Positions 33,401 to 59,859 of a DNA stretch of 64,000 bases are shown one piece after another. The translations under genes were made by a program, and so were the position numbers. The stretch's first letter is position 1. Every line of letters begins with the position of its first letter. The stretch is from Phorcus lineatus (lineage: Eukaryota > Mollusca > Gastropoda > Trochida > Trochidae). The stretch lies in assembly GCA_921293015.1 (NCBI GenBank), contig OV121081.1:29763158-29827157 (forward strand). Direction: 5' to 3'. The notes below the pieces were generated by a model. The model did not search any database, had not been told where the DNA came from, and worked only from the letters and a program-made list of their open reading frames with translations.

Positions 33401-36400
33401 TCGTGCTATAAAACATAAAACCCTGTGTTGTACCTTCTCGATATTATTGATGGTATCAAATGACTTTGTTGTTTTCAAAGTTCAACGCTATAATGACGTT
33501 CCGTATCAAATGTTACGACGGCGGGTAATCCGTCTATACTTGTAGGTTGATTTTCATTATCTTCTCTGATTTCGCGACCTATGTAATAAACAGAATATCA
33601 TAATCGTGCCCCTGACATACATTGTTTACGACACTCGTGCTTAAAGATTAGTATAGCCCTCGCTCGGTAAATACTAATATTTAGACACTCGTGTCGTAAA
33701 TATAGTATGTCATGGACACTCATATAATATCCTCTTTAATCTCTTAATCCTTGTTCAGAAGGTGGTTTTGTTAAAAACAAGCCAAAGATAACGCCGATAG
33801 TTGCTCTGATTCAATATATGAGAAAAGCTACCCTGCATCTTGCAGAACTCTGTAAGCACTATTGTGACTAACTTTAAAGCAAGTGTGATGCTTACCCTCT
33901 TAGAGGCCACTGTCTCCTTCTCGGTTTTCTCCCTGTCCTCCTCGGACCGCACTGAGATTTGTGCCACCATCCGTTCAACGTCGGAGAATACTGCCGACGA
34001 TCAGGGGTTTCATTACAGTATATATCATTCCAACCTATCATATCAGAATATATTAATCTGTGCATGGTCTAGATGAAATCTAATAGAATTTATCACTCGT
34101 ACCTCGCTCCGTAGATGACTTTTCCATTCTAGCTTTTCTGCAAGGAGGCTAGAAAGATTAGATCAGAAACACAACGACGTACAAGTGATAAATGCCAACT
34201 AGGTTCAATGAGATGTATCCGCGTAACCTTTTATTGTATTTGTAAATTTGCATTGAATTCGCATTAAAAAAATTAAATCCACCAATACTGGCATTGCCTG
34301 TTAAGTTAGTTGACCCTTAAGAAAAAAGGGATTGAAAGAGTGCAATCTCATCCATTAACTGTATCCGTAAACCATGTCACTTTACCATCATAGGGTTATC
34401 AACTATATTCTTAAAGCAGTTACATCAGCATGATCCAATCGTCATTCCTTATTGTAACTATTGGCATTTAGTAGTTAAAAGTCATTTACTCCCAAAAAAT
34501 GGTTCCCAGGTCGTTGAAACATATGAAATATATTTTGCAATTGTAATTGCTGCTTCTCTTGCATAAACCAATATCATGAGGAACAAATGACAAAACGAGA
34601 ATCATAATCGGTTACTAAGACTGTTATAAAGTACAAACAGTAAATTTCTATTTTTATAAAGCAAAAAGCACCTAATAGATGTCAAAATTTGTGGTTTTTA
34701 GTAGGTGAATGTTGTGCGTGTTTCTAAATGTCTAACGAATTTTTAACATGACAACATGTCTTACAACAGACATGATTTAAGTACCTTCCGGACTCTGTAG
34801 CATATTGATGGCCACCAGATTGACGACACACAACCAGCATGGACTGTCAAGGGGCGTTGACCCGGAAGTTAGGAGACTCACACACGTGACTGTCTGCTGC
34901 AGAAGTCGCTGGCGGTTGAAGGTAGAAGATCTCATCTCAATACCAACACGACTCCTCAGCTCCTGCATGTCGAACACCTGTAAAGAATCGGTGTCTAATT
35001 ATCTCGATATCTAATAACCCCATGCAAGCCGGATTTGTGGATTAGTATTCAATATTTTCCTCTACTAGGTTCATTTAATCTCATTTTATCATTACATCTA
35101 TAAAATTTAGGACTCGAATTACTTTTAAATTAAGGTCCATGTGATCAATATTTATTTCAAAAATTGGAAAATATATTTTTCAGATGACATACATGTATGC
35201 GTTTCAACTAATAATTTCTTTCTAGCAATGTAAAAAATATGCTTATTACAAACATTGGTTGGTGAGGTCGATCTCGACATCGCGCGTGGATACATTTTCA
35301 ACTACGCCACGGTTACAGGTAAATGGGAGATGCTACAATGGCTTATGACTTGACGCCATTCTCAAACGACATATTCATCAAAGACACAAAAATTACAATG
35401 ATGTATTATTATCACATGTATATATTTAAATACTGTGACATCGCCCTTCTTTTGAAATCAAAGAATACACAATCTCATTTAAATCAAAAGGAACATTCAT
35501 ACCTGACATTCCATTTATGATCTGAGTATTGGTGCACTGTTGTCGTGTCAGATGTGCTTTCATCTTTCATGAAAACAAATAATCAGAGGCCTGCTAAAGT
35601 ATCAAATCTTGCAGATGCCTTACTCAGCATCATTAGTGATTGGCTGGAGTGCCGAGGTCACAGGACATGACCTCTAGGGAGCAATACTCAGATCACAAAC
35701 AGAGCGATGTATGAGGAATAGGTTTAATCTGGTATAAATGAGATTGATGAAAGGCCCTGCCACTTGACACTTCAGCAATAAATAACCCGCTTCATATGCT
35801 GGCATGACGTTCATGGGTTGCACACTTTCCAAGTTGTGATACGGTCGTTAAAGCAGTAAAAAAATTCTTTTGTTATTGCATGACACTTTTCATCGTTCAT
35901 CGTTTGTTATGTCACAATCAAGTGTTTCATTCTGTATGTCGCAGATTATTAAATACGGAAACGTACGTAATAAGAATGGTTTCCAAGCAATCAAAGCAAC
36001 AATGATTAGTGTTTATAGTTAGAGGTGAGATTATCAATGAATAATTCTACCTTCATCGCTTTCTCAAAAGGGAGTCTGCCGTGTGATGTGATGACGTCAG
36101 CAGACAGGGAATGATTGGCTGGGTCGTTGTGACCTTCTACAATGACGTCATTCTGTGACAGGCGCTTTATCCATATGTTCCCATCCGGGTCATGACTGAG
36201 TGTCAAACCCTTATAAAAACACCAGAAACATGCACTTACTTACACGAGTTGACATCTATCTAAGATAAGTTAAAGAAATTATCATGGAACTTTTTATCTC
36301 TGTTTACCACTGCGTGTGTACCTGATTGAACCCTCATATATATACTGAAACCTTGAATCAACCTTGGTAACAGTGTGTATATATATATATATATATATAT

Positions 36401-59859: not shown

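Follow-up and report, generated by a model that had tools for sequence, protein, structure and literature searches.

A gastropod gene predicted to join a myosin motor to an MH2 domain nearer in sequence to Expansion than to the Smads

A stretch of 64,000 nucleotides from the genome of the gastropod Phorcus lineatus, analysed here as a whole and referred to as the window, contains what a preliminary description took to be a myosin motor joined to an MH2 domain, and the locus raises the question of whether the two domains belong to one protein, which kind of MH2 domain is involved and what such a protein might do. One large gene is predicted on the minus strand, from 59859 to 30348, with 28 coding exons (3444 bases, 1147 aa; Table 1), and it encodes, in order, a myosin motor, a short lever with a single IQ-like motif, a linker, the MH2 domain and a conserved tail. 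The model was obtained by spliced alignment of three related proteins, P0001 (Haliotis rubra isoform X2), P0009 (Patella) and P0010, to the window, and the Haliotis, Patella and P0010 proteins resolve into one co-linear gene. All junction phases are compatible and there are no internal stops, in agreement with what had been claimed for the junctions. The 28 exons of the preliminary description stand, as does its assignment of exons 21–24 to the MH2 domain, these being the same exons in the present model with the quoted motifs present, but its range of 34785..59859 does not, as exon 24 ends at position 34785 and exons 25–28 (33990–30348) fall outside it. A 73-bp exon had also been claimed, and the model has two of this length, exons 20 and 22.

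Splicing of a further relative, P0011 from Haliotis cracherodii, onto the window gave a score of 2897 with 605 identities in 1144 aligned residues, as compared with control scores of 85 for the plus strand, 132 for the reversed protein and 130 for one shuffled protein. In this run 24 of the 28 exons recur with both ends unchanged and exons 1, 19, 27 and 28 with one end each, and three very short segments of 21, 4 and 9 bp are additionally proposed, which the model does not include; the run was made with the same program as the model itself, and is to be read as agreement among relatives rather than as an independent method. The intron after exon 16 is of the GC–AG type (donor GCAAGG at 42442) and was picked to preserve the frame of the motor, several splice sites score poorly, among them the exon 1, 10 and 18 donors, and the donor of exon 19 and the 3' end of exon 27 are less certain. 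Pieces of 4 to 25 bp offered by the aligner were excluded as forced, and a stop after exon 24 was replaced by a splice at 34785 given the tails of P0009 and P0010. What looks like a broken P-loop in the plain reading frame is a read-through of a splice site, the spliced P-loop being GESGSGKT.

Table 1. Coding exons of the predicted myosin–MH2 gene, with positions in the window and the evidence for each
Feature	Position	Strand	Evidence
Exon 1, ATG at 59859, motor start	59725..59859	-	model; donor common to P0011 run
Exon 2, motor	58712..58777	-	model and P0011 run
Exon 3, motor, first part of P-loop	57968..58106	-	model and P0011 run
Exon 4, motor, P-loop GESGSGKT completed	57490..57593	-	model and P0011 run
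Exon 5, motor, switch I NKNASRF (56296-56276)	56230..56341	-	model and P0011 run
Exon 6, motor	55884..56025	-	model and P0011 run
Exon 7, motor	55229..55346	-	model and P0011 run
Exon 8, motor	53413..53554	-	model and P0011 run
Exon 9, motor	53116..53187	-	model and P0011 run
Exon 10, motor, weak donor	51461..51608	-	model and P0011 run
Exon 11, motor, switch II DVPGFE (51064-51047)	50876..51092	-	model and P0011 run
Exon 12, motor	47953..48114	-	model and P0011 run
Exon 13, motor	47035..47153	-	model and P0011 run
Exon 14, motor, loop 2 region by position	43382..43433	-	model and P0011 run
Exon 15, motor	42957..43012	-	model and P0011 run
Exon 16, motor (CIRPN...), GC donor	42442..42591	-	model and P0011 run
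Exon 17, converter region by position	41890..42007	-	model and P0011 run
Exon 18, lever, one IQ-like motif (41276-41226)	41088..41339	-	model and P0011 run; Pfam IQ below cut-off
Exon 19, linker	40798..40898	-	model; acceptor common to P0011 run, donor not
Exon 20 (73 bp), linker and start of stretch aligned to Expansion N-alpha helix	39272..39344	-	model and P0011 run
Exon 21, remainder of N-alpha-aligned stretch and MH2 core start	38293..38447	-	model, P0011 run, Pfam, MH2 profile
Exon 22 (73 bp), MH2	36567..36639	-	model, P0011 run, Pfam
Exon 23, MH2	36051..36209	-	model, P0011 run, Pfam
Exon 24, MH2 end, short L3 loop (34875-34834)	34785..34977	-	model, P0011 run, Pfam, MH2 alignment
Exon 25, C-terminal tail	33896..33990	-	model and P0011 run
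Exon 26, tail, conserved SWSRVHQR and MSYSW	32736..32880	-	model and P0011 run
Exon 27, tail, 3' end uncertain	32097..32174	-	model; donor differs in P0011 run
Exon 28, tail end, conserved REWAKARV, stop codon	30348..30415	-	model; acceptor common to P0011 run

The spliced product matches the Pfam family Myosin_head (PF00063) at aa 18–669 (2.9e-113, 379.9 bits) and then, on the same chain, MH2 (PF03166) at aa 842–1007 (1.5e-23, 84.4 bits, passing the cut-off), which bears out the joining of the two domains on one spliced model. An IQ match at aa 705–723 reaches 15.1 bits and is below its cut-off of 20.3, and the Pfam scan at E up to 0.1 gave no MH1 domain. The protein ends in ...KDEQ and has no SxS or SSxS C-terminal motif, the absence of SSxS having been correctly described before. 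In the motor the main ATP-site motifs are kept (P-loop GESGSGKT, switch I NKNASRF, switch II DVPGFE); the corresponding motifs of P0010 are GESGAGKT, NANSSRF and DMAGFE, so that switch I of the window protein has Ala where P0010 has Ser, and the P-loop of the Patella protein is GYSGSGKT. The Myosin_head scores (652.9 bits for P0010, 399.1 for P0011 and 379.9 for the window protein) indicate greater divergence in the Haliotis and window motors than in that of P0010. P0009, P0010 and P0011 share the tail behind the MH2 domain, in which WS, M-YSW and WAK..V motifs are conserved. Switch II of P0011 (aa 400–405) reads DLPGFD, that of H. rubra being DLPGFE, and the residue changed to D in H. cracherodii is normally fixed in myosins.

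The fusion of motor and MH2 domain is real and is conserved in relatives. A search for proteins combining Myosin_head and MH2 had been suggested, and in three protein searches, in which 7989, 1136 and 7997 candidates were scored, the first and third of these sets being capped, there were 12 distinct proteins among the matches listed, with both domains in P0001, P0009, P0010 and P0011, the motor alone in seven (other myosins) and MH2 alone in P0012; that other phyla are missing among the matches listed carries little weight. Three of the four two-domain proteins are from gastropods (P0011 and P0001 from Haliotis, P0009 from Patella) and are co-linear with the window protein, and the best full-length relatives are likewise gastropod, with identities of 53% for both Haliotis proteins and 37% for that of Patella. 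The database names of the Haliotis and Patella relatives (myosin-Id-like, -Ia-like, -IXAa) do not reflect the tail. P0010 has 1200 aa and its contig 4705 bases, so that introns can take up little of it. P0001, a shorter isoform, breaks off midway in the MH2 domain and has a short divergent end, which may reflect alternative splicing or an error of prediction.

The architecture itself is already known, although the preliminary description gave no named myosin class with this domain. Myosin III-like proteins with a C-terminal MH2 domain were reported in 2014 from the choanoflagellate S. rosetta and the sponge O. carmela, and it was proposed that MH2 first arose on myosins (PMC3942036). Class-80 myosins with MH2 were later defined in Ambulacraria (echinoderms and hemichordates) by Kollmar and Muhlhausen in 2017, together with annelid and mollusc orphans of class-80 architecture that are polyphyletic in motor trees (PMC5583752). 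The class is limited there to Ambulacraria, and the accessible part of its description (PMC5583752) contains neither a function nor a link to Expansion. According to the same paper, the motors of lophotrochozoan MH2 myosins either group with or are sister to those of class-36, in which molluscs, annelids and rotifers have a myosin joined to a chitin synthase (PMC5583752); class-36 is a close relative by motor, a relation taken from that paper only, whereas its tail is a chitin synthase and not MH2. The motor fused to lophotrochozoan chitin synthases has also been related to myosins III and XVI (PMC3942024). As the window protein shares with class-80 and the lophotrochozoan orphans a myosin with a C-terminal MH2 domain, we regard the present gene as a relative of these MH2-tailed myosins. 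A myosin MH2 domain of the Expansion kind is not described in the open-access literature consulted, and neither is a link between MH2 myosins and Expansion/Rebuf; Rebuf and myosin II both appear in PMC11338227, in the available text of which they are not joined.

The assignment of the domain is the firm part of the analysis. Taken alone (as a draft of 197 aa), the window MH2 has Drosophila Expansion (4r9p) as its best solved structure, at 1.7e-30 and 109.5 bits, as against 3.5e-08 and 36.7 bits for the best Smad, and a profile of four myosin MH2 domains scores Expansion at 4.5e-44 (153.6 bits) and the best Smad, Smad1, at 4.1e-15 (59.1 bits). This profile matched 25 distinct sequences, the 24 besides Expansion being all Smad-type. 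The Expansion match spans profile positions 3–197, including the stretch before the core Trp that aligns to the helix of Expansion, and the Smad-type matches start at 8 in Drosophila Mad and at 18–22 in the other 23 of the 24. Identities of the window MH2 amount to 36% with Expansion, 32% with P0012, 27% with a partial Smad4 and 22% with both Smad2 and Smad3, the gap being smaller for the MH2 of P0010 (31% to Expansion versus 27% to Smad2/3). Its L3 loop aligns without a gap to that of Expansion and has the same length; compared with Smad1/2/3 it lacks six residues, and their GWGAEY stretch is not preserved. The reported marks of the N-alpha-MH2 domain of Expansion are an added helix, a shortened L3 and a remodelled H2 region, L3 being the phospho-interaction motif of Smads and the N-alpha helix being incompatible with Smad trimers (PMC4388265). 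Expansion/Rebuf are the nearest solved MH2 by score, with the stretch of the helix aligned and an L3 of equal length, but their domain is N-terminal and without a motor, whereas that of the window protein sits behind one. The Smads belong to the same MH2 family, from which the window protein differs in that no MH1 was found and in its short L3, its end without SxS and its weaker similarity to them. By sequence, then, this MH2 domain is nearer to Expansion than to the Smads.

The fold assignment is based on these comparisons, and a structure prediction for P0011, made from 11 sequences, is not counted as evidence for it; the mean pLDDT is 62.8, with the motor mostly above 70, ten-residue means of 23–62 in the MH2 domain and very low confidence for the helix at 816–833. 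An unrooted tree of ten MH2 sequences, those of Smad4, P0001 and Expansion being partial, unites the Smads (100/100) and joins P0012 to Expansion (97.4/98), and the branch that separates the five myosins from all other sequences (Expansion, P0012 and the Smads) has 72.6/67 support; with three groups and no root the tree does not tell the sister pair, and a root placed among the myosins would bring Expansion closer to the Smads. P0012 is a motor-free protein of 663 aa from a jgi source whose MH2 domain, unlike that of Expansion, lies in the C-terminal half; its sole match in the same structure library is Expansion.

In the fly, chitin deposition is reported to need Expansion (Exp) and Rebuf (Reb) together with Kkv, and the N-alpha-MH2 domain is needed for translocation, such that without Exp/Reb chitin is made and not translocated (PMC4305360; PMC9894549). 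How nascent chitin is released is described as unsettled, Expansion/Rebuf being essential and perhaps needing a recruited 'Factor X' (PMC9894549). Loss of Exp/Reb was reported to give no TGF-beta phenotype, and Expansion to act outside TGF-beta signalling (PMC4388265). The same paper describes MH2 as limited to Smads and Expansion, a statement contradicted by PMC3942036, and the functions of Expansion as apparently conserved in Mollusca and Annelida, and its authors may have met relatives of the present gene (PMC4388265). The second fly synthase, Chs2, appears to be independent of Exp/Reb (PMC12431666), and Reb is reported not to have co-precipitated with Kkv, their pattern being complementary. 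These two points leave room for the domain to act upstream of chitin or alongside it. Moesin (Moe) is a linker between actin and the membrane. Reb has been tied to luminal matrix recycling and to Moe activation (PMC6176944). Chitin synthases have been reported from choanoflagellates, sponges, cnidarians and bilaterians (PMC3942024).

The reading that we prefer, with a rough probability of 0.42, is that the protein is a form of Expansion carried by an actin motor and acts at apical membranes that secrete chitin, a reading favoured over one in TGF-beta signalling because the MH2 domain is of the Expansion type, its L3 is short and Expansion acts outside TGF-beta signalling. The head would bind F-actin in the apical cortex or in microvilli, and the MH2 domain, rather than reading phospho-Smad tails, would recruit, as proposed for Expansion, partners for the arrangement of chitin synthase at the apical membrane and the release of the chitin polymer, while the motor might place the chitin-synthase assembly on actin or put it under tension. 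In the literature choanoflagellates, sponges and lophotrochozoans are reported with both MH2 myosins and chitin synthases. A broader proposal, doubtful at present though worth stating, is that MH2 myosins in general are a motorised Expansion, an animal chitin-translocation factor coupled to actin; the Expansion/Rebuf of arthropods and nematodes would be its descendants or cousins without the motor.

Other explanations concern the gene, the motor or the role of the tail. Two adjacent genes, a myosin and an MH2 gene, might have been joined wrongly, the model here being built from DNA and the proteins of relatives; the three introns between exons 18 and 21 have 189, 1453 and 824 bp and are in phase, and the presence of both domains on one chain in four database proteins, including P0010 with its contig of 4705 bases, argues against two separate genes, leaving this extremely unlikely. 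The motor may alternatively be decaying and serve as an actin tether or pseudomotor rather than as an active ATPase, and its divergence, with a score well below that of P0010, together with the Ala of NKNASRF in place of the Ser of NANSSRF, means that motor activity is not certain; the DVPGFE of switch II and the DLPGFD of H. cracherodii point the same way. The P-loop, the Asn and Arg of switch I and the Asp, Gly and Glu of switch II, which all have roles in the ATP site, are nevertheless present, and with no stop across 28 exons we consider a decayed motor unlikely.

A possibility that we take seriously, while putting it below even odds, is that the same protein has a general cargo or scaffold role for its MH2 domain in actin protrusions, with no tie to chitin. 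Class III myosins work in protrusions. The MH2 myosins of 2014 fall in a myosin III-like group (PMC3942036), others are reported in Ambulacraria as well as in a sponge and a choanoflagellate, and the action of Exp/Reb on Kkv in the fly is indirect, all of which would suit such a role, but chitin deposition requires the protein that holds the closest solved relative of the domain, and chitin-synthase myosins are reported to have the nearest motors (PMC5583752). The preliminary description had instead suggested that the domain binds phosphorylated tails or partners of the Smad pathway and that the motor moves or anchors TGF-beta complexes, for which may be cited that the MH2 match passes the Pfam cut-off and that the domain aligns with Smads (at 4.1e-15 at best). 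The suggestion finds no support here and is decidedly unlikely, given an L3 that is short and lacks the phospho-binding stretch, an N-alpha stretch that, by analogy with Expansion (PMC4388265), would clash with trimers, and a domain much nearer to Expansion, which acts outside TGF-beta signalling.

If an Expansion domain does ride on a mollusc myosin, actin becomes a direct candidate organiser of chitin synthases, with relevance to the formation of shell, radula and cuticle, and the class-80 and orphan MH2 myosins would gain a testable job. Were the broader motorised-Expansion proposal true, lophotrochozoan chitin export would be coupled to actin twice, via class-36 and via the motor of an export factor, and MH2 would be older as an actin or matrix module than as a TGF-beta module. 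The actin-motor reading would likewise bear on the origin of MH2, already placed on myosins by PMC3942036.

Some smaller features lie in introns of the gene or elsewhere in the window. In the intron between exons 13 and 14 there is an open stretch of 184 aa (43984–44535, plus strand) with a zf-RVT match at E 0.032, below the cut-off, which is perhaps a retrotransposon remnant, and two longer open stretches on the minus strand (13866–14312 and 14434–14724) look retroelement-like by eye and have no Pfam match. Among the tandem arrays of the window, three lie in introns of the gene, at 32924–33475 (104 bp, 5.3 copies), 43483–43810 (48 bp, 6.9 copies) and 55566–55858 (32 bp, 9.2 copies), and a further array of 59 bp in 8.9 copies is found at 27731–28257.
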